DNA from: Akkermansia muciniphila
GTDB taxonomy: Bacteria > Verrucomicrobiota > Verrucomicrobiia > Verrucomicrobiales > Akkermansiaceae
DNA: 44,763 bases
Direction: 5' to 3'
NCBI GenBank assembly: GCA_945860285.1
Contig: CAMAQB010000017.1
Span: 1-44,763, forward strand
Part shown: positions 8,170 to 43,328 of the stretch, piece after piece
Layout: the number at the start of each line of letters is the position of its first letter
Position numbering within the stretch: position 1 is the stretch's first letter
Position numbers and translations under genes: made by a program
Notes under the pieces: generated by a model
What the model was told of the DNA's origin: nothing
The model's database searches: none
The model's input: the letters and a program-made list of their open reading frames with translations, nothing else

Positions 8170-8305
8170 GGGGTATTTTCGCGTTGAGTAATTTAGTGGT
8201 CTGACGGGGAGCATAATTTGAATTCGCGCATGAGCGCAACAGCAAAATAAGAAATTTACAACACGGCTTTACAAAGCATTCACAAAAAGCCATGTAACGC
8301 CTGCG

Positions 8306-10036
8306 ATGAAGTCCATCCTGCGAGTTTTCGGTTACATCAAACATTATCCCTTTCATGCCCTTGCACAGCTGGCCTGCGCGATCGGCATGACCCTTGCGAC
8401 TTTTGTATTCCCGAATGCCACACGCCACGTGATCGATGAGATCATCCCCTTCCCGGCCCGACACGGCGAGTTCGGCTTCTGGGTTGCGATGACCTTTCTT
8501 GGTTTTGTGATCAAAGAAGGACTCAACGGCTTGCGGATCATGGTCAACAACATCTTTGAACAGAAGGTCATCTACGACATCCGCTCCGACCTCTATGACA
8601 AAATCCAGCGCTTGCCGCTGCGATGGTTCGACACCCGGCGCACCGGCGACGTGATGACGAGGGTGGTGGAGGACGTCACCAACATGGAACGGGTATTGAT
8701 CGACGGCATCGAACAAGGCCTGGTGGCGGTGCTGCAGGTGCTCGGTGTCGGGGCGTGTCTGTTTTTGATGAATGCCAAGGTCGCGCTGTGGGCCACCATG
8801 CCGGTGCCGCTGTTGGCCGTGGGCGCATGGATTTATTCCTCCAAGGGGAGGGATCGATACCGCAATCAGCGCGAGGCGGCGTCCGACCTCAACGCGCTGC
8901 TGCACGACAACATTTCCGGCATCCGCCAAATCAAGGCCTACGCCGCAGAGTCGGAAGAGTTGATTCGCTTCAACCGCTTTTCCGAGGTCTTGCGGCAAAC
9001 AAACCTGCGGATGATGAAATGGTGGGCGCTCTATTCGCCAAGCATGTCGCTGCTAAGGATGACCGGTTACGTTTTGGTGCTGGCTCTAGGGGGAATGGCC
9101 GTCATGGACGGGTCCCTTACCAAGGGTGAGTTCGTTGGATTTTTGTTATTCCTGTCCCTGTTCTACGAGCCCATCGACCGTCTCAATTCGCTCAATCAAA
9201 TGATCCTATCCGGCCGTGCCGCCGCCGACAGGGTTTTTGAAATCATGGACAGCGAGGACGAAATCAATGCAACATCGGGAAAAGAACTTCCCGCATCGAT
9301 CCAGGGTCACGTGTGCTTCGAAAACGTGAGTTTTTCCTATCAAGATCAACCCACACTTCACGAGGTGAACATCGAGGCCAAACCCGGGCAGGTCGTTGCG
9401 CTGGTCGGTCCCACCGGCGCGGGCAAAACCACGGTGCTGTCCTTGCTGGCGAGATTTTACGAAACCACCGAGGGGCGCATCACCATGGATGGCATCGATC
9501 TGGCAACGCTTTCGAAAGCCTCGCTGCGCGACCGCATGGGTTACGTCACCCAGGAAGCGTTCCTTTTCAATGGCACCGTCAGGGAAAACCTGCAGCTCGC
9601 AAAACGCGATGCCAGCGATGCCGAAATGTGGGCGGCCCTGGATGCGTCACACGCTTCCAATTTTGTTAGGGAACTGCCGGAATTGCTGGACACCAATGTC
9701 GGCGAACGCGGCGTGAAGCTTTCAGGCGGGGAAAAACAGCGGTTGTCGATCGCCCGCTCGCTGTTGAAGAACGCACCGATCCTTTTGCTGGATGAAGCGA
9801 CGGCTTCGGTCGATTCGGAAACCGAACGATTGATCCAGCAGGCGCTCGATCACTTGATGAAAAACCGCACGTCGTTTGTCATCGCCCACCGGTTGTCGAC
9901 CATCCAGAACGCGGATAAAATCTACGTTCTCGATGCCGGCCGGGTTGTGGAAGAGGGAACCCACCAGCAACTTCTCGACCTCAACGGCAAGTACGCCGAG
10001 CTATGCCGGAAATCGTTCCTGCCCGAAAAGGTCTGA
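8306..10036 (+). CDS. ABC exporter, MsbA/lipid exporter-like, fused membrane and ATPase domains
   Basis: A 576-residue half-transporter. The first 320 residues form the six-helix exporter domain, with DIRSDLYDKIQRLPLRWFDT and TGDVMTRVVEDVTN typical of this type. The ATPase domain has Walker A GPTGAGKTT near residue 369, the Q-loop VTQEAFLFNGTVREN, signature LSGGEKQR near 472, Walker B ILLLDEATASVD, and the H-loop IAHRLSTI. The homodimer would flip a lipid or export a hydrophobic substrate across the inner membrane. Similarity to MsbA-type lipid flippases is strongest, but related multidrug exporters share all these motifs, so the substrate is not fixed. No Shine-Dalgarno sequence precedes the ATG. 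Confidence 0.92.
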   Translation: MKSILRVFGYIKHYPFHALAQLACAIGMTLATFVFPNATRHVIDEIIPFPARHGEFGFWVAMTFLGFVIKEGLNGLRIMVNNIFEQKVIYDIRSDLYDKIQRLPLRWFDTRRTGDVMTRVVEDVTNMERVLIDGIEQGLVAVLQVLGVGACLFLMNAKVALWATMPVPLLAVGAWIYSSKGRDRYRNQREAASDLNALLHDNISGIRQIKAYAAESEELIRFNRFSEVLRQTNLRMMKWWALYSPSMSLLRMTGYVLVLALGGMAVMDGSLTKGEFVGFLLFLSLFYEPIDRLNSLNQMILSGRAAADRVFEIMDSEDEINATSGKELPASIQGHVCFENVSFSYQDQPTLHEVNIEAKPGQVVALVGPTGAGKTTVLSLLARFYETTEGRITMDGIDLATLSKASLRDRMGYVTQEAFLFNGTVRENLQLAKRDASDAEMWAALDASHASNFVRELPELLDTNVGERGVKLSGGEKQRLSIARSLLKNAPILLLDEATASVDSETERLIQQALDHLMKNRTSFVIAHRLSTIQNADKIYVLDAGRVVEEGTHQQLLDLNGKYAELCRKSFLPEKV

Positions 10037-29040: not shown

Positions 29041-30543
29041 TTACTTTTGCGTGATCCACACCGCCGCTCCAACAACCGTTAGAATGGCGATCACCACCCA
29101 GAGGAAAACGAGAACAGAACTCGAAGCCGCGTTCCCCGTCTGCTGCAGCCGGTCATAGCGGCCCTTGAGCTTGCCCTTGCGGAGAAATCCATCGTAATGG
29201 CGTTGCAATAAATGGGTTTCCACCTGGCGCATCACGTCCAGCACCACGCCAACAAGAATCAACAGGCTGGTTCCGCCGAAAAATTGCAGAATCGGCGAGT
29301 TCTGTTCAATCTTCATCAGTGCACCGACCGCAGAGGGTAGCACAAAAATGAAGGTCAGGAAGATCGATCCGGCGAAGGTAAGCCGGGTCATGGTGAAGTC
29401 GAGAAATTCACCCGTCGGCTTGCCGGGTCGCACACCGGGGATGTATCCGCCGTTGCGTTTCAGGTCTTCCGCAATTTGCGAAGGCTGGAACATCGTGGCC
29501 ACCCAGAAATAGGAGAAGAAGAAAATGCCGATCGCACCAAGGGTATAGTACAACCAGCCCTGACCCAGCGCGGTTTGCAGTTTGACCGACCACGAGGCCT
29601 TGCTGCCGATCAACTGGAGCAGAATCCCGGGAAGTGTGATCACGGCGGACACGAAAATAATCGGCATGACCCCGGAGTAGTTGACCTTGAGCGGCAGGTA
29701 CTGGGTCTGGCCGCCGAACTGCTTCTTGCCCACCACCCGCTTCGCATACTGCACCATGATCCGCCTCTGTGCCTGGGTGATCGAGATCACCGCCGCGATC
29801 ACAAAAACCAGGAATGCAATCATAAACACCAGCTTCAGGGCGATGAACGGGTTGTTCTCGACATTGGTGGTGAACATTTTCCACGCCAGCACCAGCGCGC
29901 CAGGAAGGGCGGAAATGATGTTCACCATGATGATGATCGATGTCCCGTTGCCAATGCCACGCTCGGTCATCTGGTCGCCGATCCACATCAACAACATGGT
30001 ACCGGAAACAATGGTCAACATCGTGATCGCATGCCACGCGAAACTCGGGTCGGGCACCAGGAGCCGGCCGTTCATGACCCGCTCGATCCCGCTCATCAAG
30101 CCGCGCAATTGCTCGGGATGGGTAAGCGTCGCGGTCAGAAAATACCCCTGAACAAGGGCGATGATCAACGCGAGATAACGCGTCCACTGGGTGATTTTCT
30201 GCCGTCCGCCCTCTTCACGGGATAGCTTGGAAAGCTTTGGCACCACCGCCGTCATCAACTGCACCATGATCGACGCGGAAATGTAGGGCATGATCCCCAA
30301 TGCGAAAATGCCCGCCTGCTGAAGGGCCCCGCCTGAGAACACAGTGAGCATCGCCGTCAACGGATTGCCCGTGCCGCCGTCTCCCTTGGCCATCGACTTC
30401 GTCCAATCATCAATCAAGGCAGCGTCAACGCCAGGGAGGGTGATGTGGACACCGAGACGCACGATGATGATCATCGCCAGAGTGAAAAGAATGCGATCGC
30501 GCAATTCAGGAACGCGCCAGGTGTTAGCAAATGCAGATATCAT
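29041..30543 (-). CDS. secY: Preprotein translocase subunit SecY
   Basis: Channel subunit of the Sec translocon. The 500-residue protein has ten helices and SecY signatures: GIMPYISASIMVQLMTAVVP in helix 2, GGRQKITQWTRYLAL, GIGNGTSIIIMVNI, the cytosolic loop QAQRRIMVQYAKRVVG, and YFWVATMFQPSQIAEDLKRNGGYIPGVRPG. It is longer than E. coli SecY (443), mainly through an enlarged loop after helix 1 (DDWTKSMAKGDGGTGNPLTA) and extra sequence between helices 3-4 and 6-7. The ATG at 30543 gives the canonical MISAFANTWRVPELRDRI. A hairpin separates it from rplO. Confidence 0.97.
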   Translation of the reverse strand: MISAFANTWRVPELRDRILFTLAMIIIVRLGVHITLPGVDAALIDDWTKSMAKGDGGTGNPLTAMLTVFSGGALQQAGIFALGIMPYISASIMVQLMTAVVPKLSKLSREEGGRQKITQWTRYLALIIALVQGYFLTATLTHPEQLRGLMSGIERVMNGRLLVPDPSFAWHAITMLTIVSGTMLLMWIGDQMTERGIGNGTSIIIMVNIISALPGALVLAWKMFTTNVENNPFIALKLVFMIAFLVFVIAAVISITQAQRRIMVQYAKRVVGKKQFGGQTQYLPLKVNYSGVMPIIFVSAVITLPGILLQLIGSKASWSVKLQTALGQGWLYYTLGAIGIFFFSYFWVATMFQPSQIAEDLKRNGGYIPGVRPGKPTGEFLDFTMTRLTFAGSIFLTFIFVLPSAVGALMKIEQNSPILQFFGGTSLLILVGVVLDVMRQVETHLLQRHYDGFLRKGKLKGRYDRLQQTGNAASSSVLVFLWVVIAILTVVGAAVWITQK

Positions 30544-30652: not shown

Positions 30653-31099
30653 TCAGGCAGGCTGAATGGTTCCGCCAGCCTTCTCGATCTTCTCGCGCGC
30701 GGATGCGCTGACGTGCTCGACTTGAATCGTCAGGCTCTTGGTGATTTCGCCATTGCCGAGGATCTTCACGCGGTCGTAGCGACCATTGACCAGACCAGCG
30801 GCGCGGAGGATTTCCTCGTTGACGACGGCACCGCTCTCGAAGTTCTCCTCCAAAGTGGCAACGTTGACACCGAACACCTTCGTTTTGTAGTCGTAGTTGT
30901 TGAAACCGCGCTTGGGCAGCCGGCGGTGCAGAGGCATCTGGCCGCCTTCAAAGCCGACGCGGACGGTGCCGCCCGAGCGGGCCTTCTGGCCCTTGTTGCC
31001 CTTGCCGGACGTTTTGCCATGGCCCGAACTTTCGCCGCAACCGAGACGTTTGACGCGGTGTTTGGAGCCGGGATTGGGAGATAGAGTATGAAGTTTCAT
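30653..31099 (-). CDS. rplO: Ribosomal protein L15
   Basis: Large-subunit protein of 148 residues that binds 23S rRNA late in assembly. Marked by MKLHTLSPNPGSKHRVKRLG at the start, SGHGKTSGKGNKGQKARSGG and GGQMPLHRRLPKRGF, all standard. It follows rpsE by 21 nt; rpmD (L30), which normally stands between them, is absent. The C-terminus ends VSASAREKIEKAGGTIQ, complete. Confidence 0.98.
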   Translation of the reverse strand: MKLHTLSPNPGSKHRVKRLGCGESSGHGKTSGKGNKGQKARSGGTVRVGFEGGQMPLHRRLPKRGFNNYDYKTKVFGVNVATLEENFESGAVVNEEILRAAGLVNGRYDRVKILGNGEITKSLTIQVEHVSASAREKIEKAGGTIQPA

Positions 31100-31120
31100 T
31101 GCTGCTGAAAAATAAAATTG

Positions 31121-31795
31121 TTAGACCGATTTCTCACGGACTTTTTTCCCCCGTGAGCTGAGAATGTTTTCCCGGGTGCGCAACGACGAGAGCGCCTTGA
31201 TGGTGGCTTTCACGACGTTGGCGTGGTTGGAGGAGCCCATCGACTTGGCGAGGATGTCCTTCACGCCGGCTGCCTCGCAGACCGCGCGGACACCACCACC
31301 GGCGATGATTCCGGTTCCGGGTGATGCCGGTTTGAGTAGCACCTTGCCACCACCGAATTCCGCGTAGGTTTCGTGCGGCAGCGTGCCATTGACGATGCAC
31401 ACCAGTGTCAGGTTCTTGCGGGCCGCCTGGCCGCCTTTTTTGATCGCATCGGAAACCTCCTTGGCCTTGCCAAAACCAAGTCCGACTTTGCCCTCCTTGT
31501 CGCCACAGACAACAAGCGCGGAGAAACTGAAGCGACGTCCACCTTTCACCACCTTGGCGCAACGATTGATGAACACGACTTTTTCGGAAATGCCGTCGTC
31601 AATATCGGGACGGCGGTCGTCACGGCGCGGGCCGCGATTGTTGCCACCGCCCTGCCCACCGCGGTTGAATCCGCCGGGGCCTCCTGGGCCGCCACGACGC
31701 TGGTCAAAACCTGCGGAGCCCGCCACCGGACCGAGGGCATTTACAGCAGGGGTTTCTGGAACTTGTGTAACGGGAATATCGGAATCTGTAACCAT
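31121..31795 (-). CDS. rpsE: Ribosomal protein S5 with long Gly/Arg-rich N-terminal extension
   Basis: Small-subunit protein that helps to form the mRNA entry channel and affects accuracy. The canonical part begins around residue 68 ([20 protein letters not shown]) and includes [18 protein letters not shown] and the C-terminal domain ending in SLRTRENI. At 224 residues it is about 55 longer than the E. coli protein (167). The surplus is a disordered N-terminus: an acidic/Pro part (about 1-30), then [16 protein letters not shown] and [16 protein letters not shown]. No internal ATG would give the standard length, and the frame is uninterrupted from ATG at 31795, so the extension is probably real. 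Confidence 0.96.
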
Positions 31796-31806
31796 GATAA
31801 TTTTTG

Positions 31807-32163
31807 TTAGAATTGGAGACCGGCTTCCCGGGCGGCATCGGCAAGAGCTTTCACCTTGCCATGATAAAAGTGACCACCACGGTCAAAGACCACGTTGCTG
31901 ATGTTGGCGGCCTTGGCGCGTTCGGCGATCAGCGCCCCGATGCTGCGGGCGCATTCGATGTTTGCCTGCGATTTTTCGAGCGTCTTGTCGAGCGTCGAAG
32001 CCGAGCAAAGCGTGCGACCGACAACGTCGTCGACGATCTGCACATAGACATGCTGGTTGGAGAAATGCACGGCGAGGCGTGGACGGGCGGCTGTGCCCGT
32101 CACCTTGCGGCGGATGCGCTTGTGAACGCGCTGCCTGATTTCCTTGCGATTGATCATGCTCAT
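31807..32163 (-). CDS. rplR: Ribosomal protein L18
   Basis: A 118-residue 5S rRNA-binding protein. [40 protein letters not shown] and the ending [20 protein letters not shown] are diagnostic. The N-terminus MSMIN offers two ATGs two codons apart. It stands between rplF (41 nt before) and rpsE (11 nt after), the usual spc order. Confidence 0.98.
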
Positions 32164-32204
32164 GAAGTTGTTTTTCTTGGAGTTTCAGTGTTGGTGGCGG
32201 ATGG

Positions 32205-32744
32205 TTATTTGCCGACAGATTTGCCTTCCTTGCGGCGCACATGTTCGCCGACATAGCGCACGCCTTTTCCTTTGTAGGGCTCCGGCGGATGGAAGCCGCG
32301 GACTTCGGCAGCGAACTGACCGACCATCTGTTTGTCAATTCCTTCGACTTTGATCTTGGTGTTGTCCGTGACCGTGACGGTCAGGCCTTCGGGAATCGGA
32401 TGCAGCAGTGGATGGGAACGACCGAGCGAGAGGTCGAGATCCTTGCCTTTCACTGCGGCGCGAAAACCGACGCCCTGGATTTCAAGGTCTTTGACGAAGC
32501 CCTTGGAAACGCCATTGATCATGTTGTTGACAATCGCCCGGGCGGTGCCGTGAAGCGCCCGCGTCTGGCGGGTTTCCGAGGTCCGGGTAACCGTCAATTT
32601 TTCCTTTTCATTGCTGAGCTCGATTCCGGTGGGAAGAGTGAAGGCAAGCTTGCCCTTGGGTCCTTCGACGGTGACGACGCCGCCGTCGTTCTTGACGGTG
32701 ACTTTCTCCGGCAAGCTGATTGGTTTAACTCCTACGCGTGACAT
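32205..32744 (-). CDS. rplF: Ribosomal protein L6
   Basis: A 179-residue two-domain protein near the factor-binding site of the 50S subunit. It begins MSRVGVKPISLPEKVTV, has GPKGKLAFTLPTGIEL and the classical C-terminal motif in which an FHPPEPYKGKGVRY segment replaces R-x-P-x-P-Y-K-G-K-G-I-R-Y, followed by the basic end RRKEGKSVGK. Its leader TTAACCAACTAATACC contains no G at all. Confidence 0.98.
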   Translation of the reverse strand: MSRVGVKPISLPEKVTVKNDGGVVTVEGPKGKLAFTLPTGIELSNEKEKLTVTRTSETRQTRALHGTARAIVNNMINGVSKGFVKDLEIQGVGFRAAVKGKDLDLSLGRSHPLLHPIPEGLTVTVTDNTKIKVEGIDKQMVGQFAAEVRGFHPPEPYKGKGVRYVGEHVRRKEGKSVGK

Positions 32745-32772
32745 GGTATTAGTTGGTTAAATGGTTGTTGGT

Positions 32773-33171
32773 TTACCAGACAATGGCGAGCAGTTCGCCG
32801 CCGAGTTTCTCCCGTTTGGCGCGGGCGCCGGTCATCACACCTTTGGACGTTGAAAGAATGGAAATCCCCAAGCCGGACATGACGCGCGGGATTTCATCGG
32901 TGCCGACATAATTGCGTCGACCGGGAGTCGAGACGCGCTTCAATCCGGTGAGAACCGGGCGGCCATCGACAAACTTGCCTTTCACCTTCAGGGTGGGATG
33001 ACCGTCGGTGGTCAGAACTTCGTAGTTCCAGACATAACCCTCCTCCTGGAGGATTTTGGCGATGTCGGCTTTGATCCGCGAATAGGGCGCGGTGAAAACT
33101 TCGTTGCCAGCACGCGAGGCGTTGCTGAAACGGGTGAGGAAATCGGAAATGGGATCGGTAAGAACGGCCAT
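32773..33171 (-). CDS. rpsH: Ribosomal protein S8
   Basis: A 132-residue 16S rRNA-binding protein, in other bacteria also the repressor of the spc operon through an mRNA site near rplE. It begins TDPISDFLTRFSNASRAG and closes with the conserved RVSTPGRRNYVGTDEIPRVM, GLGISILSTSKGVMT and GGELLAIVW. It comes directly after rplE (26 nt), with no rpsN between. An S8-type regulatory stem could exist here, but I cannot identify it reliably. Confidence 0.98.
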   Translation of the reverse strand: MAVLTDPISDFLTRFSNASRAGNEVFTAPYSRIKADIAKILQEEGYVWNYEVLTTDGHPTLKVKGKFVDGRPVLTGLKRVSTPGRRNYVGTDEIPRVMSGLGISILSTSKGVMTGARAKREKLGGELLAIVW

Positions 33172-33197
33172 AATGGGAGTCGTGTTGGTAGTTGGAT

Positions 33198-33779
33198 TCA
33201 GGCTGCGCTGGTTTCGGTTTCTTGCTCTTTCTTGTTCTCACGGAACGGCATCCCAAGGGCGCGAAGCAACTCGCGGCCTTCATTGTCGGTGGCGGCCGAT
33301 GTCACGAAAATCAGGTCGAAGCCGATGGTGCGCTTGATTTGATCGATTTCAATTTCAGGGAAAATCGACTGGTCAGGCACGCCCATGGCGTAATTGCCGT
33401 GCCCGTCGAATGACTTGAACGGAACGCCCCGGAAGTCGCGGATGTTCGGTGCGGTGACATTGATGAAACGATCAAAAAACTCCCACATGCGGTTGCCGCG
33501 CAGGGTCACGCGGGCACCCAATGGTTCGTCGGCGCGCAACTTGAAGTTGGCGACGGCTTTGCGGGAGAATGAAATCGACGGCTTCTGGCCGGTAATCTTG
33601 GCAATTTCGTTGGCAGCGTCCTCGACGGCGAGTTTGCGGTCGGGAGCTTTGCCCATGCAGGACGTCACCACGATTTTTTCGAGGCGCGGTACGGCATTCG
33701 GGTTGGTGTAACCTAGTTTCTCCACGAGCGCCGGAACGGCTTTCTCGCGATAGTATTGTAACAGTCTTGGTGTGCTCAT
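33198..33779 (-). CDS. rplE: Ribosomal protein L5
   Basis: A 193-residue 5S rRNA-binding protein that contacts the P-site tRNA. Clear motifs: VPRLEKIVVTSCMGKA, ITGQKPSISFSRKAVANFKL, GARVTLRGNRMWEFFDRFI, and FPEIEIDQIKRTIGFDLIFV. The family usually has N-x-G near SCMG (here Ser-Cys-Met-Gly), a small deviation. A short acidic tail (KKEQETETSAA) extends the C-terminus. It is preceded by a 90-nt gap with two inverted repeats. Confidence 0.98.
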   Translation of the reverse strand: MSTPRLLQYYREKAVPALVEKLGYTNPNAVPRLEKIVVTSCMGKAPDRKLAVEDAANEIAKITGQKPSISFSRKAVANFKLRADEPLGARVTLRGNRMWEFFDRFINVTAPNIRDFRGVPFKSFDGHGNYAMGVPDQSIFPEIEIDQIKRTIGFDLIFVTSAATDNEGRELLRALGMPFRENKKEQETETSAA

Positions 33780-33818
33780 ATTTTTGTTTTCAGCGGGTCA
33801 GCGCATTTTGTGATGCTT

Positions 33819-33862
33819 GCGCTTAAGCGCGGGCGGAAAATCCTGTCGTTCCGGGGAACGAC
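33819..33862 (-). promoter_or_regulatory. Two inverted repeats in the rplX-rplE gap
   Basis: gtcgttccggggaacgac (33845-33862) is an 8-bp stem around two bases starting 7 nt after the rplX stop; gcgcttaagcgc (33819-33830) is a perfect 12-nt palindrome downstream. Neither is followed by a T run. They lie just before rplE, the place where S8-dependent control acts in the spc operon of enterobacteria. Confidence 0.4.
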
Positions 33863-33869
33863 GGGGAAT

Positions 33870-34109
33870 TCAGCCCAGTTTCTTGACATTGGAAATGTGA
33901 ATCGGTGCGTCGATGGAAAGAAGCCCTCCGTCGGGATTGGCTTCGCTTTTGCGGGTAGCCTTGGTAACCGTGCGGGTCTCGCCGACGATGACGGTGCCTT
34001 TTTTCGCGTTCACCGACAGGACGGTGCCGCGTTTGCCCTTGATGGCCACTCCGCCGGTCGTGATCTCGACCTGGTCGCCCTTTTTGACATGTGTTTTGAT
34101 TTTACTCAT
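33870..34109 (-). CDS. rplX: Ribosomal protein L24
   Basis: A 79-residue KOW-domain protein that starts 50S assembly. The KOW core is [18 protein letters not shown] and [19 protein letters not shown], followed by [15 protein letters not shown]. The protein is shorter than E. coli L24 (104) because the C-terminal part after the DAPIHISNV segment ends almost at once; such short L24 forms are common in this lineage by my recollection. Spacing to rplN is 27 nt. Confidence 0.96.
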
Positions 34110-34136
34110 GATGGATGGTGTTTGGTGCGATGCGGC

Positions 34137-34502
34137 TCAGACAACTTCAGGGGCGAGGGAGACGATTTTCATGAACGACTTCTCGCGAAGCTCACGGGCC
34201 ACAGGGCCGAAGATGCGGGTGCCGCGGGGATTGTTGTCCTTGTCGATGATCACGATCGCGTTGGTGTCGAAGCGCAATACCGAACCATCGGCACGGCGGA
34301 TCGGTGCGCTGGTGCGGACGACAACCGCTTTGACAACCGAGCCTTTTTTCACCGCTGCGGTGGGGATCGAGTCGCGGATGTGGGCGGTGATCACGTCACC
34401 CACGTGGGCAAAGCGGGTGCGTTTGCCAATGACGCCGATCATCTTGGCGCTTTTGGCGCCCGTGTTATCGGCTACGACTACGGTGGATTCCATCTGGAGC
34501 AT
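34137..34502 (-). CDS. rplN: Ribosomal protein L14
   Basis: A 121-residue protein at the subunit interface. It shows [20 protein letters not shown], the basic stretch [20 protein letters not shown] and [20 protein letters not shown], and ends SLAPEVV. This is one of the most conserved ribosomal proteins and the match is complete. It follows rpsQ with 45 nt between. Confidence 0.98.
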
Positions 34503-34547
34503 GATTCAATAAAATGTGTGTGTTTTGCCTGCGCGGCGGTGTTGCTA

Positions 34548-34817
34548 TTAGTGAGTAAGGATCGAGTCAAGCGCCCATCGCTTTAATTTCGATGTCGGGC
34601 GGGATTCCACGATGCGAACCTTGTCGCCGACCTTGGCTTCGCCTTTTTCGTCATGCACATAGAATTTCTTGGTCTGCTTGACGATTTTGTTGAAGCGCGG
34701 ATGCGGCACGCGGGCGACGTATTCGACAACGATGGTTTTGTCCATCTTGTCGGAGACGACGAGGCCCACGCGTGTTTTGCGGCTGGAGGAACTGGTGTTG
34801 GTGGCGGTTTCGCTCAT
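34548..34817 (-). CDS. rpsQ: Ribosomal protein S17
   Basis: An 89-residue primary 16S rRNA-binding protein with an OB fold. GLVVSDKMDKTIVVEYVARV, VPHPRFNKIVKQTKKFYVHD and GDKVRIVESRPTSKLKRWAL are diagnostic. A Ser/Thr-rich N-terminal run (SETATNTSSSSRKT) precedes the core. Frame and order (rpmC-rpsQ-rplN) are standard. Confidence 0.98.
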   Translation of the reverse strand: MSETATNTSSSSRKTRVGLVVSDKMDKTIVVEYVARVPHPRFNKIVKQTKKFYVHDEKGEAKVGDKVRIVESRPTSKLKRWALDSILTH

Positions 34818-34847
34818 AGAAAATAGTGGGTCGATGATGAAGTTGTT

Positions 34848-35051
34848 TTATGCCTTGGCCTTGCGCTCATTGAGGATCGTCGCCAGCCGGGCGTTTTCGC
34901 GGCGGATGGCACGAACACGAGCGGGGTTTTCCAATGCGCCGGTGGCTTTCTGGAGTTTGAGGTTGATGCCCTCGATTTTCAGGTCGCGGGTGCGACGCTT
35001 GATTTCGTCGGCGGACAGTTCACGGAGGTCTTTCGCTTTGGAGTTGGCCAT
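34848..35051 (-). CDS. rpmC: Ribosomal protein L29
   Basis: A 67-residue helical-hairpin protein at the peptide exit tunnel, a docking site for trigger factor and SRP. It starts MANSKAKDLRELSADEIKRR and has LKLQKATGALENPARVRAIR and RRENARLATILNERKA, the conserved second helix. Spacing is 21 nt from rplP and 30 nt to rpsQ. Confidence 0.97.
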   Translation of the reverse strand: MANSKAKDLRELSADEIKRRTRDLKIEGINLKLQKATGALENPARVRAIRRENARLATILNERKAKA

Positions 35052-35072
35052 GGTATTTGGGAAGTTGAATGA

Positions 35073-35492
35073 TTATGCGTGAGGATTGCGGACGACAAAA
35101 CGTGTGGGCAGACCCAGTTTGTAGGAGGCGAGGCGCATTGCTTCACGGGCCTGGGACTCGGGAACGCCGGCGATTTCAAAAAGCATGTTGCCGGGGCGGA
35201 TCACTGCGACCCAACCCTCAACCGGTCCCTTGCCTTTACCCATCCGGGTTTCGGGAGGACGCGAGGTGATCGACTTGTGCGGGAAAATCCTGATCCAGAC
35301 CTTGCCCTTCCGCTTCATGAAACGGTTGATCGCGATACGGCAGGCTTCGATCTGGCGGTTGGTCATCCAGCCGCGGTCAAGGGCCTGGAGACCGAAGTCG
35401 CCAAAGGCTACGGTGGTTCCCGAAGTGGCATTTCCGGCGCGGGAGCCGCGGAAAGACTTGCGGAACTTGGTTCGTTTGGGCATCAAAGGCAT
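35073..35492 (-). CDS. rplP: Ribosomal protein L16
   Basis: A 139-residue protein at the A-site tRNA elbow. It shows [20 protein letters not shown], the loop with [40 protein letters not shown] and [20 protein letters not shown]. The Arg-rich IRIFPHKSI segment is intact. Two ATGs three codons apart exist; the first (35492) is favoured because it lies 7 nt after a good Shine-Dalgarno sequence, rare in this cluster. Confidence 0.98.
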
Positions 35493-35499
35493 AATAGTG

Positions 35500-35505
35500 T
35501 CCTCC
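35500..35505 (-). promoter_or_regulatory. Strong Shine-Dalgarno sequence of rplP
   Basis: Minus-strand GGAGGA, 7 nt before the ATG at 35492. It is the only strong Shine-Dalgarno sequence I could find among the genes of the ribosomal cluster; rpsL has a weaker AGGAA. Confidence 0.75.
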
Positions 35506-35553
35506 TGGGAATAATGTTGGCGTTAAATGTGGTGAAATCGGAAGGGCGGGAAC

Positions 35554-36297
35554 TCAGCGACGTTCGCCGCCGCGGTTGTTATTGTTGTTGTCGCGGCGAT
35601 CACCACCGCGGTTGTTGTTGTCACGGCGCTCACGACGTTCGCGCGGCGGACCACCAGCACCGGGACGATTGTCCTCCTCCTTGCGGTTGATCCAGCACTT
35701 GACGCCGATGATGCCATACAGCGTGCGCGCCTCGGCAAAGCCGTATTCTATCGGCACGCGGAGCGTTTGCAATGGCACCTTGCCTTCGCGATACCACTCG
35801 GCACGCGCGATGTCGGCACCACCGAGTCGACCGGCACAGCGGACGCGGATGCCTTCGGCACCGAATTCCATGGCGGTTTGCAGGCAGCGTTTCATCGCAC
35901 GACGGAAGGAAACCCGGCGCTCAAGCTGTTGGGCGATGTTTTCCGCGACAAGTTGCGGTTCCAATTCGGGCTTGCGGATTTCAAGAATGTCGATCTTGAC
36001 CTGGGCATTGCCGCAGATTTTGGAGATCTCATTGGTCATTCTCTCGATCTCGCTGCCTTTGCGTCCGATGATCAATCCGGGACGGGCCGAGTGCAGGGTC
36101 ACGCGGACGGAATTCCAGGCACGCTCGATGACCACTTTGGCGATGGCGGCAAACTGCAGGTTCTTTTTTACATATTCGCGCACCGCAAGGTCCTCGTGAA
36201 GTTTGTTGGCATAATCCTTGCCAGTGGCAAACCACTTGGAGCGCCAGTCTTTATTGACGGCGAGGCGGAAGGCGATCGGGTTGACTTTTTGTCCCAT
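35554..36297 (-). CDS. rpsC: Ribosomal protein S3 with Asn/Arg/Gly-rich C-terminal tail
   Basis: Protein of the mRNA entry channel with helicase activity together with S4 and S5. The body is typical: [20 protein letters not shown], the KH domain [34 protein letters not shown] and [20 protein letters not shown]. The final 40 residues replace the usual short end by a low-complexity tail: PRERRERRD, then NNNRGGDRR and [12 protein letters not shown], visible in the DNA as an imperfect tandem repeat (about 35570-35640). Total length 247, against 233 in E. coli. Confidence 0.97.
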
Positions 36298-36327
36298 GGT
36301 AGATTTGGTTGAATGTTGATGGTGAGC

Positions 36328-36711
36328 TTATTTGACAGCTTTTTCAGCTTTGGCGGATTTGCCTTTCTTGGCGGGCGTCTCCTCATCGGTGAGCGTGATG
36401 AAAATGTGGCTGGTCGGACGGCGGATCGCACCGGCGGAGCCTTTGGCGCGGGGCTTGAAACGTTTCAACGCGGGACCGATTCCAATCACAGCTTCCTTGA
36501 TCGTCAGCGTTTCGGCATCCATCTTGAAATTGTGTTGAGCATCGGCCATCGCCGTTTTCAGCGTTTTGCCGATCAACTGGGCTGCTTTTTTCGGAGTGAA
36601 ATTAAGAATATCCATGGCGCTGCCAGCCGGCATGCCTTGAATTTCGCGGGCGACGTCGCGCGCCTTTTTGGGCGAGAGACGAACGTATTTTGATGTGCTT
36701 TTGACTTCCAT
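36328..36711 (-). CDS. rplV: Ribosomal protein L22
   Basis: A 127-residue protein with a loop lining the peptide exit tunnel. The product reads MEVKSTSKYVRLSPKKARDV, then ALKRFKPRAKGSAGAIRRPT (tip of the tunnel hairpin) and SHIFITLTD, followed by a Lys/Ala-rich tail. The frame is open upstream within the preceding gene, but the ATG at 36711 is the L22 start. Unusually the upstream neighbour is not rpsS but a coiled-coil envelope protein. Confidence 0.97.
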   Translation of the reverse strand: MEVKSTSKYVRLSPKKARDVAREIQGMPAGSAMDILNFTPKKAAQLIGKTLKTAMADAQHNFKMDAETLTIKEAVIGIGPALKRFKPRAKGSAGAIRRPTSHIFITLTDEETPAKKGKSAKAEKAVK

Positions 36712-36739
36712 GGTCGTGGGATCTGGTTGTGCCGGAGGC

Positions 36740-37480
36740 TTATCGTGGTTGTGTGTCGAGAATGATGGTGTCGCCGAGGCGGACGGTTTCGTTAGGTGGG
36801 TCGATCTGTTCGACAAAAGCACCGGCGACATTCTTGCGAACATCGGCGATGATGGCTTTGCCGAAGGGGCGGTCGCCGCGCTGGATGGTGTAAACCATGC
36901 CAATGCGGCATTCTTGATTCTGGCCGACATTGACAACAAGCAGACCGCTTTCCGAGTCCAAGCTGACCACCTGCGCCCGTTGCAGGGAGCCGGTTTTGAT
37001 GTCGGGGCGGGGTTTATGGCGCAATCCAAGCGCCGCGTCAAGATTGCGAAGGGAACTTTCCAGACGGAGCCGCACATCGGGATCGGCAACAACAGCGTGG
37101 CGGACGAAATCCTGAGTTGTTGAAGCAAGGGCGATGGCCGCCTTCTCAGTAGCTTCCAGCCGTTCCTGCAGCACTTGTTGCTCGGCCGCGGCCTGCACAA
37201 GGCGGTCGTCGCCGCCGTCGAGAAGATTTTTTCCAAGCGCTTCCAGACGTTGTTTGATCTGGGCCAATTGCTCGGCAGCGAGCGACTCGCCGCGTTTGGC
37301 CTCGATCACCGCATTGGCGAGCACCTCGTTCTGCTTGCGCAGCTTGGCGATTTCCAAGCCCTGGGTGTCGGCAGCCGGCGCGGACGGCGGCGTATCATCC
37401 TGGCAAAGAGCCACAAGCGGTGCCGCGCAGAGGCCAAAAGCCGTGCGTGCGAGCAACCGATATGTGGTGGAAAATGACAT
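36740..37480 (-). CDS. Exported coiled-coil protein inserted in the S10 cluster (paralogue 3)
   Basis: A 246-residue protein between rpsS (20 nt) and rplV (28 nt), same strand, so certainly co-transcribed. It has an export signal (FGLCAAPLVALC; cleavage or weak lipobox near residue 26), a heptad-rich coiled coil at about 40-125 (LEIAKLRKQNEVLANAVIEA, AAEQLAQIKQRLEALGKNLL), and a C-terminal domain at about 169-246: VVSLDSESGLLVVNVGQNQE, then GMVYTIQRGDRPFGKAIIAD and VRLGDTIIL. This domain matches those of the proteins at 6309 and 7177 in length and pattern. The function is unknown; a ribosomal role is unlikely because of the signal. Confidence 0.88.
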   Translation of the reverse strand: MSFSTTYRLLARTAFGLCAAPLVALCQDDTPPSAPAADTQGLEIAKLRKQNEVLANAVIEAKRGESLAAEQLAQIKQRLEALGKNLLDGGDDRLVQAAAEQQVLQERLEATEKAAIALASTTQDFVRHAVVADPDVRLRLESSLRNLDAALGLRHKPRPDIKTGSLQRAQVVSLDSESGLLVVNVGQNQECRIGMVYTIQRGDRPFGKAIIADVRKNVAGAFVEQIDPPNETVRLGDTIILDTQPR

Positions 37481-37500
37481 GCAGAATGAAGTGTGAACGG

Positions 37501-37770
37501 TTATTTCTTGCCGATGCCGCCGTGTGCTTTGAAAATCCGGGTGGGCGAAAACTCACCGAGCTTGTGGCCCACCATGTTTTCGGTAACGAAAACCGGGACG
37601 AACGTTTTACCATTATGAACAGCGAAGTTGTGACCGACGAAATCAGGCGTGATCATCGACTTGCGGCTCCATGTCTTGATGGCCTTGTATTCGCCGATGG
37701 CGGCAACGGCATCAATTTTGGCGAGAAGTTTTTGATCGACAAACGGACCTTTTTTTAACGAGCGGGGCAT
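37501..37770 (-). CDS. rpsS: Ribosomal protein S19
   Basis: An 89-residue head protein of the 30S subunit, near the decoding A site. [40 protein letters not shown] and [18 protein letters not shown] are exact family marks. Its upstream leader TTTAACCACTCAACACC has no G. It stands 31 nt after rplB. Confidence 0.98.
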
Positions 37771-37801
37771 GGTGTTGAGTGGTTAAATGGATGAAAAATG
37801 A

Positions 37802-38638
37802 TTACTTCTTGGTGCGGGGCGAGACGATGAAAATCGCGCTGGCCTTCTTCTTGTTGCGGGTCTTCTGACCTTTGGCGTGTCCCCACGGGCTGAGAAGGTG
37901 TTTGCGACCGCCACCGGACTTCGAACGACCCTCACCACCGCCGTTCGGGTGGTCAACCGGGTTCATCGTCATGCCGCGGACGGTGGGACGAACGCCATTC
38001 CAGCGGGTGCGTCCCGCTTTGGCGGAAACCTCGTTCATGTGCTCGCGGTTGCCGACTTGGCCGATGGTGCAAAGGCAGTTTTCATTGAAGCGGCGAATCT
38101 CCCCGGACGGCATCTTGACCAGACCGAAGCCAGCCTCGCGGTTGGAAAGAATGGCCTGCTGGCCAGCGGCACGCGCCACCTTGCCACCGGAACCGGGAAG
38201 CAGTTCGATGTTGTGAATCACCGTTCCCAGCGGCACGCTTTTCAAAGGCATCGCATTGCCGGGTTTGGGATCGGCTTTCACAGTCGAAATCACCGATGCA
38301 CCGACCTCGAGACCCACGGGAGCAAGAATGTAACTCTTCGTGCCGTCGGTGTATTGGATCAAAGCGATGCGGCAGGTGCGGTTCGGATCGTATTCAATCC
38401 CGACCACCGTGGCAGGCATGTCAATTTTGTTGCGCTTGAAATCGACCAGGCGGTAGTGACGCTTGGCGCCTCCGCCGACATGACGACAGGTGATGCGGCC
38501 CGTGTTGTTGCGACCGCCGCTGCGCTTGATCGGCGAGAGCAGGGATTTTTCAGGCGTTGACTTCGTGACCTCTTCAAAGGACGGAAGCTGCTTGTAACGC
38601 GCGGATGGTGTGTGAGGTTTGAAAATTTTTAAAGCCAT
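37802..38638 (-). CDS. rplB: Ribosomal protein L2
   Basis: A 278-residue protein required for subunit association and peptidyl transfer. It contains [36 protein letters not shown], the motif [20 protein letters not shown], and the C-terminal [20 protein letters not shown] with the catalytic-centre His, followed by [16 protein letters not shown]. Complete and of normal length. Confidence 0.98.
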
Positions 38639-38697
38639 GACTCAAGGTATGTTCGAGTTGTTCGGTTTGCGGGAGCAGTGGTGACGGGATGAATGGA

Positions 38698-38982
38698 TTA
38701 CACGAGGTCGAGTTTTTCGCCCTCCTTCAGGCGCACGATCGCTTTTTTGATGTGGTTGGTGCGGCCCTCGTCTGCACGGCGGCGGCGTTTCGCCTTGCCC
38801 TTCATGTTGAGCGTGCGGACATCGGCGACTTTCTTGCCGAAAAGGGTTTCCACAGCCTGCTTGATTTCAAGCTTGTTGGCCTGCGGATCCACATCGAGCA
38901 CGATCTCATTGTTGAGTTCGTTCAAGTACGTGGCCTTCTCGCTCATGCGGACGTTTTTGATAACATGGAAAAGATCTTTCAT
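38698..38982 (-). CDS. rplW: Ribosomal protein L23
   Basis: A 94-residue tunnel-exit protein that binds trigger factor and SRP. It starts MKDLFHVIKNVRMSEKATYL and has EIKQAVETLFGKKVADVRTL, MKGKAKRRRRADEGRTNHIK and KKAIVRLKEGEKLDLV. The ATG at 38982, 7 nt after the rplD stop, is used; the frame is open upstream inside rplD. It is a little shorter than E. coli L23 (100). Confidence 0.97.
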   Translation of the reverse strand: MKDLFHVIKNVRMSEKATYLNELNNEIVLDVDPQANKLEIKQAVETLFGKKVADVRTLNMKGKAKRRRRADEGRTNHIKKAIVRLKEGEKLDLV

Positions 38983-38989
38983 AACAATA

Positions 38990-39598
38990 TCAGGCTGTGC
39001 GTTTGGCAAGGGTTTCAAGAGCTGCGCCGACGACGAAAATGTCGTTGTGCAGCAGCATTTGCTCGACGTTCACTTCGTTCGCCGTCATCAGCAGGACATG
39101 GGAAACGTTGCGGGCAGAGAGGTAGGTTTTCTCATCGAAGCTGTCGGCGATGATCAAAATGCGGCGTGCGGTCGAGAGGGCGTCGACGGCAGCGACGAAC
39201 GACTTCGTTTTTCCATCGGCGATGACAAAGGAAGGCAGGGTGTGCAGAACACCACCGCGGATGAGGTCGCCCAGCACGCGGCGCAGCGCCAGCTTGCGGG
39301 TGGTTTTGGAAACCTTCTTGGAGTAGTCACAAGCGCGGGGGCCGAAGACGACACCGCCGCCGACGAAAATCGGCGCGCGTTTGTCACCATGACGGGCGCC
39401 ACCGGTGCCTTTTTGCTTGTAGATTTTCTTGTTGTTGCCCGAGACCTCGCCACGTGTCTTGGTGTGGGCGGAACCGGTGCGGCGGTTGGCCCGATACGCG
39501 GTAATCAGGTCGTGCACGGCCTGGGTGCCCTTGTCGGCGGGAGCCAGCAGCAAATGCGCCGCTTCAGCGGCTTCTACGGAGAGTGTTTGGGAAGTCAT
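38990..39598 (-). CDS. rplD: Ribosomal protein L4
   Basis: A 202-residue tunnel protein; in E. coli it also represses the S10 operon by binding a leader before rpsJ. Here the basic loop RANRRTGSAHTKTRGEVSGN, KIYKQKGTGGARHGDKRAPI and GPRACDYSKKVSKTTRKLAL are clear. No S10 leader is possible in the classical place, because only 37 nt separate fusA from rpsJ, so autogenous control by L4 must differ or be absent. Confidence 0.97.
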   Translation of the reverse strand: MTSQTLSVEAAEAAHLLLAPADKGTQAVHDLITAYRANRRTGSAHTKTRGEVSGNNKKIYKQKGTGGARHGDKRAPIFVGGGVVFGPRACDYSKKVSKTTRKLALRRVLGDLIRGGVLHTLPSFVIADGKTKSFVAAVDALSTARRILIIADSFDEKTYLSARNVSHVLLMTANEVNVEQMLLHNDIFVVGAALETLAKRTA

Positions 39599-39635
39599 GA
39601 CGTGGAATGTGGTTCGGAATTCGATTCAGTGGAAA

Positions 39636-40274
39636 TCACGCGGATTTTTTCTTTGCGGGGCGAACGGTTACGTAGCTGCCCTTGGCGCCTGGAATGGCAC
39701 CGGAGATCAACAGCACGCCGTCTTCCGGACGAACGGCGACAACTTTCAAATTCTGCACGGTGCGCTGGGTGTTGCCATCCTGTCCGGGCATCTTCTGGTT
39801 TTTCCAGACGCGTCCCGGGGTGGAGCGGCAACCGATCGCTCCCGTTCTGCGGTGCATCATCGATCCGTGAGTCATGCGCAATCCACCGAACTTGTATCGT
39901 TTGACAACACCGGTGAAGCCGTGACCTTTGGAAGTGCCGATCACATCGACAAACTGGCCCGCTTTGAAAAGATCCATGCCGGGATGCACTTCGGGAAGCG
40001 TCTCGCTGCCGGTGATGCGGAATTCCTGAATCTTGCGCTTCGGTGCCGAACCAGCCTTGTTGAAAATACCCATCGCCGCCTTGTTCACGCGCTGGGGTTT
40101 CAACTGGTCGTCAAATCCAACTTGAACGGCCTTGTAGCCCTCCTTGTCGACGGTTTTGTGTTGCAGATAGGTGTTGCCCTGCACGTCGACAACGGTCACG
40201 GGGATCATCGCCTGCGTGGCCTCGTCAAACAGACGGGTCATTCCTAATTTTTTGCCGAGAAGTCCTAGTGGCAT
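39636..40274 (-). CDS. rplC: Ribosomal protein L3
   Basis: A 212-residue protein close to the peptidyl transferase centre. It shows MPLGLLGKKLGMTRLFDEAT, the GTSKGHGFTGVVKRYKFGGL segment, THGSMMHRRTGAIGCRSTPG and RVWKNQKMPGQDGNTQRTVQ. The Gln that is methylated in enterobacteria lies in the GQDGN part. The leader is A/C-rich and G-free (TTTTCAACCAAACATTATT). Confidence 0.98.
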   Translation of the reverse strand: MPLGLLGKKLGMTRLFDEATQAMIPVTVVDVQGNTYLQHKTVDKEGYKAVQVGFDDQLKPQRVNKAAMGIFNKAGSAPKRKIQEFRITGSETLPEVHPGMDLFKAGQFVDVIGTSKGHGFTGVVKRYKFGGLRMTHGSMMHRRTGAIGCRSTPGRVWKNQKMPGQDGNTQRTVQNLKVVAVRPEDGVLLISGAIPGAKGSYVTVRPAKKKSA

Positions 40275-40305
40275 AATAATGTTTGGTTGAAAAGTTTGAT
40301 GAAAA

Positions 40306-40614
40306 TCAGATGCGGATGGAGATGTCTACGCCGGCGGGAAGATTGAGTTTCTTCAACTCATCGACCGTGCGCGATGTCGGATCAATGATGTCGAGCAGGC
40401 GTTTGTGCGTGCGGATTTCGAACTGCTCGGCGGACTTTTTGTTCACGTGTACTGAACGGTTGACGCTGAATTTTTCGATGCGTGTCGGCAGCGGGATCGG
40501 CCCGGAAACCTTGGCGCCCGTGCGTTTGGCGGTTTCAACAATTTCAGCGGCGGATTTGTCCACGGCGCGATGATCAAAAGCGCGGAGGCGGATGCGTATT
40601 TTCTGATTTTCCAT
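40306..40614 (-). CDS. rpsJ: Ribosomal protein S10
   Basis: A 102-residue 30S head protein that also serves as the NusE antitermination factor. [40 protein letters not shown] and [20 protein letters not shown] are unmistakable. The ATG at 40614 is chosen; the frame is open upstream into fusA's end but unconserved. It follows fusA after 37 nt, where tuf would be expected. Confidence 0.98.
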
Positions 40615-40651
40615 AACGAGAAGAGGTTTGGTGTGGTGGTTGCTGTGTGAA

Positions 40652-42811
40652 TTAAAAACGGGATGTGCCGCCGCGCTCGTTGACGATTTCATCGACAATG
40701 TTGCCGGGGACCTGCTCGAAATGCGAGGGGGTCATCGAATACGAGGCGCGACCGGAGGACAAGGTGCGCACAGCGGTGGAGTACCCGAACATCTCCTTGA
40801 GCGGAACGGAACAGCGGACGATCGCCAGTTTGCCCTTGGTGTCCATGCTGGTGATTTGTCCACGGCGACGGTTCAAGTCGCCCATGACATCGCCCTGATA
40901 GTCCTCCGGGGTCGAGACCTCAACCGCCATGATCGGCTCGAGCAAAATCGGCTTGGCTTTTCTAAAGGCTTCTTTCATCCCGAAAATGGCGGCCATGGTA
41001 AAGGCGTTTTCGTTCGAATCCACATCGTGATACGAGCCGCCGAGAATGTTGACATGCACGTCGATGACCGGATAGCCCGCGATGATGCCGTTGGACATCG
41101 ACTCATTGACACCCTTGTAAACGGCATTGATGTACTCCTTGGGAATTTCGCCGCCGACGACCTTGTTTTCGATCGTCAGCCCCTTGCCCTTGTCATTCGG
41201 GGCCACATTGAGGCGAACGTGGCCGTATTGTCCGCGACCGCCGGATTGTTTGACCAACTTGCCTTCCGCCGCAGCGGGCTGGGTGATTGTCTCGCGATAA
41301 GCGATTTGCGGGGCCCCGGTGTTTGCCTCCACTTTGAATTCGCGCTTGAGACGGTCGACGATGATTTCCAAATGCAGTTCGCCCATGCCGGAGATGATGG
41401 TCTGACCGGTTTCCTCATCGGTCTTGACCATGAATGTGGGGTCTTCTTCGGAGAGGCGGGCCAGGGCCAGCGCCAGTTTCTCCTGATCCACTTTTGTCTT
41501 GGGCTCGACGGCCATCGAGATCACCGGTTCCGGGAAAGTGGGCGGTTCGAGAACCACGTCGTGATTGTCTGCCGCGAGGGTGTCACCCGTGGTGACGTTT
41601 TTCACTCCAACCATTGCCGCGATGTCGCCGGAATAACAGGCATCAATGTCGGTATGCTGGTTTGATTGGATGCGGATCAAACGACCAACGCGCTCGGAAC
41701 GCCGCGTGCGGGGGTTGTAAATGGTATCGCCCTTCTTGACGCAACCGGAATAAACACGGAAGAAAACGAGCTTGCCAACGAACTTGTCGGCCCAAAGTTT
41801 GAATGCCAACGAGACGAACTTCTGATTGTCGTCGGTGATGACATTGATTTTCTTCTCCTCATTGTCGGGATCCATGCCAATCGCAGGGGGAATGTCCAGA
41901 GGATTGGGCAGGTAGTCGACCACGGCATCCAGCAGGAACTGCACGCCCTTGTTTTTGAATGCGGAGCCACCGGCCACCGGAACGAGATGATTGGCAATGG
42001 TGGCACGACGAATGCCGTTTTTCAAGTCTTCGCGGGAAATGGGTTGTTCCAACAGGAATTTTTCCCCAACCTGCTCATCGACACTGGCAACCGCATCCAA
42101 CAGTTCGGTGTAGGCCTCTTGGGCGATGATTTTTTGGTCGGCTTCAAGCTCCTTGACAGTGTATGTTGATCCGAATTTGTCGTCGTCGTTGTAATAAACC
42201 GCCTTTTGATTGACCACGTCGATCTGGCCTTTCAACTGGTCCTCGGCACCGATCGGAATCAGGATGCGCACGGCGTTCGCTCCGAGTTTGTCCTTGATCT
42301 CTTCGAAGACGCTTTGGAAATTGGCGCCGATGCGATCCATTTTGTTGACGAATACAAGGCGCGGCACGTTGTATTTCGTCGCCTGACGCCAGACCGTTTC
42401 CGTCTGCGGTTGCACCCCGGCGACGCCGCAGAACACCACAATCGCGCCATCGAGAACCCGCAGGGATCGTTCCACCTCGGCCGTGAAGTCCACGTGACCT
42501 GGAGTATCGATGATGTTGACCCGCATCTTCTCCCCGGCGTGCAGTTTGGTGACACCTTCCTCTTCGCGCTGCCACCACTCGGTGGTCACGGCGGCGGAGG
42601 TGATGGTGATGCCGCGCTCGCGTTCCTGCTCCATCCAGTCAGTTGTCGCGGCACCGTCGTGCACTTCGCCGATCTTGTGAATCATTCCGGTGTAGAACAA
42701 AATCCGCTCAGTCAAAGTCGTCTTGCCCGCATCAATGTGCGCGCAAATGCCGATATTCCGCGTGCGATCCAGCGGATATTGGCGATTCGGACTGTTGGGA
42801 TTGGACGACAT
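40652..42811 (-). CDS. fusA: Elongation factor G
   Basis: GTPase that drives ribosomal translocation and, with RRF, recycling. The 719-residue product has G1 [15 protein letters not shown] (near residue 24), the switch region [21 protein letters not shown]3 DTPGHVDF, and G4 NKMD in [12 protein letters not shown]. Domains II-V follow, with [19 protein letters not shown] and the C-terminal [16 protein letters not shown]. All are features of the canonical fusA type rather than the spdG/EF-G2 types. Location between rpsG and rpsJ supports this. Confidence 0.98.
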
Positions 42812-42854
42812 GAAAGGGATGAAATTTTCCGGGCAGGCAGGTTGCTATAAATTA

Positions 42855-43328
42855 TCAGAAACGGAAATGGGCGAATGCGCGGTTGGCTTGGGCCATTTTA
42901 TGCACATCGTCGCGCTTGCGCACGGCGTTGCCCTGGTTGTTCGCGGCATCTTTGAGTTCGTTGGCGAGTGCCACATGCATCGGCGTGCCTTTGCGATTGC
43001 GAGCGTAATTGATCAACCAGCGCATCGCCAGAGCCTCGGAGCGCGCGGCCGGCACCTCAAGAGGCACCTGATACGTCGCACCGCCCACGCGGCGAGATTT
43101 CACTTCCACACGCGGTTTTGCGTTCTCGATCGCACGGGTCACAACCTCAAGCGGGTCGATGGTTTCGGTGCCCTCGCTGGCACGGTCGATCGCGGCATAG
43201 ACAATCCGCTCGGCAAGAGCGCGTTTGCCATCGACCATGACCTTGGAAATCAGATTGCCAACCAGCGCGCTATCATAGCGGGGGTCGCGTTTTTCAACCT
43301 TGTGGAATACTCGTTTACGACGTGACAT
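42855..43328 (-). CDS. rpsG: Ribosomal protein S7
   Basis: A 157-residue protein that organises the 30S head at the E site. MSRRKRVFHKVEKRDPRYDS, LISKVMVDGKRALAERIVYA, PRVEVKSRRVGGATYQVPLE and ALAMRWLINYARNRKG are standard. In E. coli S7 represses the str operon through the rpsL-rpsG spacer; here that spacer is only 34 nt, too short for the known structure. Confidence 0.98.
   Translation of the reverse strand: MSRRKRVFHKVEKRDPRYDSALVGNLISKVMVDGKRALAERIVYAAIDRASEGTETIDPLEVVTRAIENAKPRVEVKSRRVGGATYQVPLEVPAARSEALAMRWLINYARNRKGTPMHVALANELKDAANNQGNAVRKRDDVHKMAQANRAFAHFRF

Follow-up and report, generated by a model that had tools for sequence, protein, structure and literature searches.

Between rpsS and rplV, inside the S10 operon, Akkermansia muciniphila carries a gene (hereafter gene X) that appears to be an old, vertically inherited member of this operon in Verrucomicrobiota, apparently retained at this site over a very long period. 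Its product is probably exported, to judge from its amino-acid sequence, and is predicted to combine a helical stalk with a small C-terminal barrel. The position of the gene, its conservation, the purifying selection acting on it and the fold predicted for its product are computed results. The explanation that we favour, at slightly less than even confidence, is that X is a structural or adaptor protein facing the periplasm and made in amounts that depend on the S10 transcript. X would be transcribed with rpsS and rplV, and for this reason its supply would track ribosome synthesis. Through its helices the protein would form a dimer or an oligomer beyond the inner membrane, and the barrel, through a near-invariant arginine, would dock on an envelope partner, X thereby acting as a structural or adaptor element required in proportion to growth. 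Co-transcription, export, oligomerization, the partner and the coupling to growth are steps that we infer. Bearing no Pfam or NCBIfam name and being kept between rpsS and rplV across many families, X suggests a growth role at this place and would provide a concrete handle on the matching of envelope growth to ribosome synthesis.

Genomic context of gene X

The window, i.e. the whole stretch of 44,763 nt that was analysed, corresponds to contig C17 in a draft genome of 3.7 Mb. Its minus strand carries a str-S10-spc series, the genes of which were named by recognising their translations, in the order rpsL, rpsG, fusA, rpsJ, rplC, rplD, rplW, rplB, rpsS, X, rplV and rpsC, followed by rplP, rpmC, rpsQ, rplN, rplX, rplE, rpsH, rplF, rplR, rpsE, rplO, secY and map. 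Gene X, delimited by an ORF analysis of the window, occupies positions 36740-37480 of the minus strand (ATG start, 246 codons and a stop). The upstream neighbour rpsS (37501-37770, minus strand) is separated from it by 20 nt and the downstream neighbour rplV (36328-36711, minus strand, starting at 36711) by 28 nt, the three genes sharing one strand and one orientation; the coordinates thus confirm the placement and spacers given in the preliminary description. The rpsS-rplV pair is among the steadiest bacterial gene pairs. Since the site lies inside the contig and relatives show a matching order, the arrangement cannot be put down to an assembly break.

The preliminary description also held that the expression of X must follow ribosome synthesis, which the gene arrangement makes plausible. 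A simple scan of the minus strand revealed neither a terminator-like nor a promoter-like site within either spacer of X. No Shine-Dalgarno-like site was found before X, nor before 18 of the 19 other genes checked; among these 20 ribosomal-cluster genes (window 30653-43328), a clear one occurs only at rplP. The codon adaptation of X (0.655) is not separable from that of ordinary genes (0.509-0.750) or from that of ribosomal proteins (0.638-0.807).

The closest parallel within the window is secY (29041-30543 or longer, the start codon being our choice), which, like X, is a membrane- or export-related gene amid genes of ribosomal proteins. It specifies the universal translocon, whereas no name attaches to X, whose product is probably exported and which was searched for within one phylum. 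Other features of the region concern ribosomal proteins: in the usual spc order rpsN separates rplE from rpsH, and rpmD separates rpsE from rplO, and both places are empty here (33172-33197, a gap of 26 nt, and 31100-31120, a gap of 21 nt). The end of rpsC (35554-35690) is a low-complexity tail in which N, R, G and D abound. Searches of the window for Rfam families (at gathering score) and for tRNAs were negative.

Conservation and distribution in the phylum

Up to the order level, 57 genomes were sampled (the genome itself, nine of the same genus, 25 of the same family and 22 of the same order), and X is present in all of them. It lies just upstream of rplV in 57/57 and has rpsS upstream in 56/57, the contig of the remaining genome (G053) beginning 230 nt before X; spacers within the order range from 11 to 76 nt before X and from 4 to 89 nt after it, with the first ATG taken as start. 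A second, weaker match occurs in six of the 57 genomes: the five examined resemble P2 and P3, two distant relatives of X elsewhere in the window, and the sixth is the match with an in-frame stop in G027, where the X match crosses one stop and the X reading frame ends at 236 aa. The order rpsS-X-rplV was also found in 79 of the 80 loci of a second set, the last reaching a contig edge after X. These loci are the best 80 of 110 by similarity and several belong to genomes of the 57-genome sample, so the two counts are not additive. A chance ORF or an assembly artefact is ruled out by the homologues in 57/57 genomes, the conserved position and a dN/dS of 0.08-0.17.

At the class level, a profile built from 39 rows (threshold E up to 0.001) matched 231 of 285 genomes, weak matches including those to P2/P3-like genes, and rpsS was located in 274 of the 285. 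The positions of the two genes were compared in the 126 genomes present among the best matches listed for both: X follows rpsS on the same strand in 125 of them, with 8-521 nt between matches, and stands at a contig edge in the other. Seventy-eight of the 125 are outside the order, spread over 20 families. Among the class matches listed, that of G204 has an in-frame stop.

Twenty further class genomes were examined, namely 19 of the 23 with a listed rpsS but no listed X, plus G148; having been picked for missing X, they give no estimate of loss frequency. An X-type gene does occur between rpsS and rplV in six of them, as a long form in G148 and G098 and as a short form (114-185 aa) in G129, G264, G237 and G308. 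The place between rpsS and rplV holds no X in the other 14 (gap of 24-339 nt), which include two genomes of 0.9 Mb (G072 and G081), and X is therefore dispensable in some lineages.

In the phylum, 154 of 240 sampled genomes matched the X profile at E up to 0.01, P2/P3-like matches counted in. Twenty hits outside the class were selected with a preference for strong matches and matches to the C-terminal domain; 19 are just upstream of rplV, 15 of these with rpsS upstream, and the other is a P2/P3-like tandem. In the four remaining loci (L116, L117, L121 and L126), 15 str/S10 proteins of the window, used as tblastn queries, revealed no gene of this set within ~7.5-9.4 kb upstream of X. In G419 (L238:7568-9300), where the operon is broken, the X ORF (8434-9300) overlaps at its start with a same-strand ORF (7568-8455) that resembles TatC on visual inspection.

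Searching the S10 clusters of relatives at the rpsS-rplV point, as had been suggested at the outset, thus recovered X in many genomes across the phylum; absence from all relatives combined with an assembly break at the site was not observed. The arrangement had been called unusual, a qualification that holds in so far as several lineages are without X, but the order rpsS-X-rplV is widespread in this phylum, the one searched.

Inheritance and selection

Distances of X and of rpsC correlate over 82 loci (r 0.73, reached in 0/2000 permutations) and within the order (0.78). In a tree of rplV, rpsC and rplP, the loci L116, L117 and L121 fall into a single clade (0.997), with L126 apart from them and clustering with L128, so the operon probably broke upstream of X at least twice, with X staying with rplV each time. 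The deeper branching order is uncertain because the node uniting the out-of-class loci has a support of 0.71 and the tree is midpoint-rooted. Whole-gene dN/dS was 0.08-0.17 over the 13 within-genus pairs listed, many synonymous distances being near saturation, and X is under purifying selection. Across the alignment of 82 sequences, G186 and G194 never vary, and R215 occurs in 78, including all 19 out-of-class rows.

Vertical inheritance also fits a possible, though less probable, account in which a single insertion placed X in the operon. The protein would be required at a constantly high level for some unrelated periplasmic task, and the gene would have been retained because breaking an essential operon is costly; neither ribosomes nor growth rate would have a functional connection with X. 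The loss of X without obvious substitute in 14 of the 20 further class genomes examined and the location of the distant relatives P2 and P3 outside the operon agree with such a history. This account is weakened by the loci in which the operon broke, at least twice, while X held its place before rplV. It also fits poorly with the operon cluster of Gammaproteobacteria and Bacilli where, in the text available of PMC8046335, insertions between and in operons are described whose new order is often not kept; the persistence of X in its place contrasts with these insertions.

Export signal and predicted structure

A putative signal peptide covers approximately residues 1-26 of X (37403-37480, minus strand). 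By our own rough rule, a signal-like start is found in 54 of 57 X homologues against 3 of 19 ribosomal-protein controls; in the X of the window the hydrophobic stretch is clear and the cleavage site picked by the rule (after residue 40) unconvincing, which leaves the exact site uncertain. Some out-of-class versions look, by eye, N-terminally membrane-anchored.

The AlphaFold2 model of full-length X (53 sequences) has a mean pLDDT of 83.3 and a pTM of 0.42, with ten-residue blocks at 88-96 over residues 161-240. It shows a helical stalk over residues 37-151 (37028-37372, minus strand; helices 37-86, 91-128 and 134-151) and six strands between residues 168 and 241. The latter form a C-terminal barrel domain (residues 164-241; 36758-36991, minus strand) containing the near-invariant R215, which modelled alone gave a pLDDT of 89.0 and a pTM of 0.77. 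The arrangement of stalk and barrel relative to each other is uncertain owing to the pTM of 0.42 of the full model. The signal-bearing start, helical part and small beta domain initially described for this protein are upheld, as far as a rough signal rule and a predicted model can tell.

The short forms of X (L102, L112, L108 and L109; 114-185 aa) keep the signal-like start and the barrel, are without the long stalk and are still flanked by rpsS and rplV. Their retention of the start would suit a quite improbable reading in which the start signal outweighs the domain, co-translational export of X from mid-operon tethering the S10 transcript to the membrane (transertion). Against this reading stands the strong conservation of residues in the barrel, which a mere tether would not need. 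More broadly, the phylum might possess a built-in ribosome-envelope link, in which an exported barrel protein, kept within the S10 operon from an early point in the history of the phylum, either provides an envelope component in amounts that scale with ribosomes or, through its export, fastens the S10 mRNA to the membrane; we regard this wider proposition as speculative and rather unlikely.

Comparison with known families and folds

No Pfam family over cut-off and no NCBIfam match was found for X, and PHROGs gave weak matches only; no family match in Pfam or NCBIfam supports X as a ribosomal protein. When 39 family members were scanned singly, the commonest weak Pfam matches were to helical families, namely ZapB (11 members, best 0.00069), DivIC (7, 0.00026) and MscS_porin (2, 2.5e-5), which we read as coiled-coil similarity. 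A sequence search against solved structures gave coiled coils for the most part, with myosin on top (E 0.0029), and weak rows for TsaP (0.051) as well as MreC (0.13 and 0.24). No description of X was found in the literature covered, judged by title and start of abstract, with subscription papers and supplements outside this coverage, and the text available of PMC3444138, PMC2474590, PMC8046335 and PMC4960237 makes no mention of it.

By structure comparison with VIA-align, the full model ranked closest to the FlgT C-domain (8z5n, Z 11.2, 1.8 Å over 73 residues; 3w1e, 10.6), followed by V1/F1 barrels (9.5) and MreC (7eft, 9.2). The domain alone scored 10.6 with FlgT and 9.6 with F1, which is at the limit of a tie, and MreC was not among its best 50 rows, which excludes nothing. 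The top Foldseek rows for the full model were F1-ATPase (E 8.3e-4), and FlgT came at 1.6e-3 and MreC (2j5u) at 5.2e-3; the domain alone had no match at E up to 0.001, its best being 8z5n (7.9e-3). A viral structure library also gave barrel matches, one of them named FlgT C-terminal domain. Since this fold is common to unrelated functions, it does not indicate any function for X.

FlgT_C (PF16538), from the Vibrio flagellar H ring, has a six-stranded barrel fold that the X model shares, as do F1 barrels and others. At the sequence level, FlgT_C stays below the Pfam cut-off in 19/19 genomes; of 39 family members, 7 match it with an E no higher than 1, the lowest being 0.03. X holds the top FlgT_C match of the whole genome in G036, G037, G038 and G039, and P3 holds it in the genome of the window, all below cut-off; in the four other genomes with a match it lies elsewhere. 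X differs from FlgT by its helical stalk and its location in the S10 operon. A flagellar X is unlikely, FlgI being detected in 0/19 genomes with three control genomes positive. The N-terminal barrel of F1-ATPase alpha/beta subunits and the barrels of adaptor proteins belong to the same fold class as the X model (F1 chains, Z ~9.5), but sequence identity is 7-16% in the listed rows and X is without an ATPase domain. The likeness of the FlgT C-domain, the F1 barrel and adaptor barrels is described in the available text of a review (PMC4446572).

That the barrel might help to hold a secretin complex in the envelope, in the manner of TsaP, seems very unlikely. Secretins are present in 19/19 genomes and there is a weak profile match to TsaP in the FlgT_C-type region (E 0.051), but this match is not significant, no secretin gene adjoins X, and X shows no Pfam match up to E 10 to LysM, a domain of TsaP going by its PDB molecule name.

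MreC (PF04085) resembles the X model in its layout of helices followed by a barrel (7eft, 2.2 Å over 69 residues). In MreC the helical stretch precedes two barrel domains, whereas the X model shows one six-stranded barrel. A Pfam search at E up to 10 gave no match of the MreC family to X, and an hhalign comparison with an MreC profile, using 18 of 22 MreC rows, was weak (E 0.008 for one target, probability 4.9). X as the MreC of the organism is ruled out, since 22 of 24 genomes have their MreC family match at another place, that of its own genome being on contig C75; the two genomes without such a match are G011 (99% complete) and G012 (69% complete). As MreC is a separate gene, X and MreC could act together, and X might be an accessory of the MreB/MreC elongation machinery. 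The modelled likeness to MreC (7eft and 2j5u) and the common succession of helices and barrel would suit this role, which we nevertheless consider the least probable of the readings weighed here, given that G011 (L030), of the same family, carries X with no MreC match and that the profile match is so weak.

The favoured reading of X, as an envelope element supplied with the ribosome, concerns a phylum in which experimental work is feasible. In Verrucomicrobium spinosum, according to the text available of PMC12283558, targeted mutagenesis exists, and an essentiality screen reported 644 essential genes; the 618 essential proteins include 100 without known function.

Distant relatives outside the S10 operon

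The preliminary description mentioned paralogues of X elsewhere in the window. Two minus-strand ORFs outside the S10 operon, P2 (6309-7121) and P3 (7177-8169), do carry the C-terminal domain type of X, but as distant relatives (34.9 and 41.0 bits, respectively, against the X profile). A single-protein search at E up to 10 found no second X copy in the genome, and the family profile gave a second, weaker match. The best FlgT_C match of the genome, in P3, has an E of 0.15, below cut-off. P2 and P3 form a conserved pair: matches to both lie side by side in four of the five relatives examined (L059-L062), and a locus outside the class (L123) carries two P2/P3-type ORFs in tandem.
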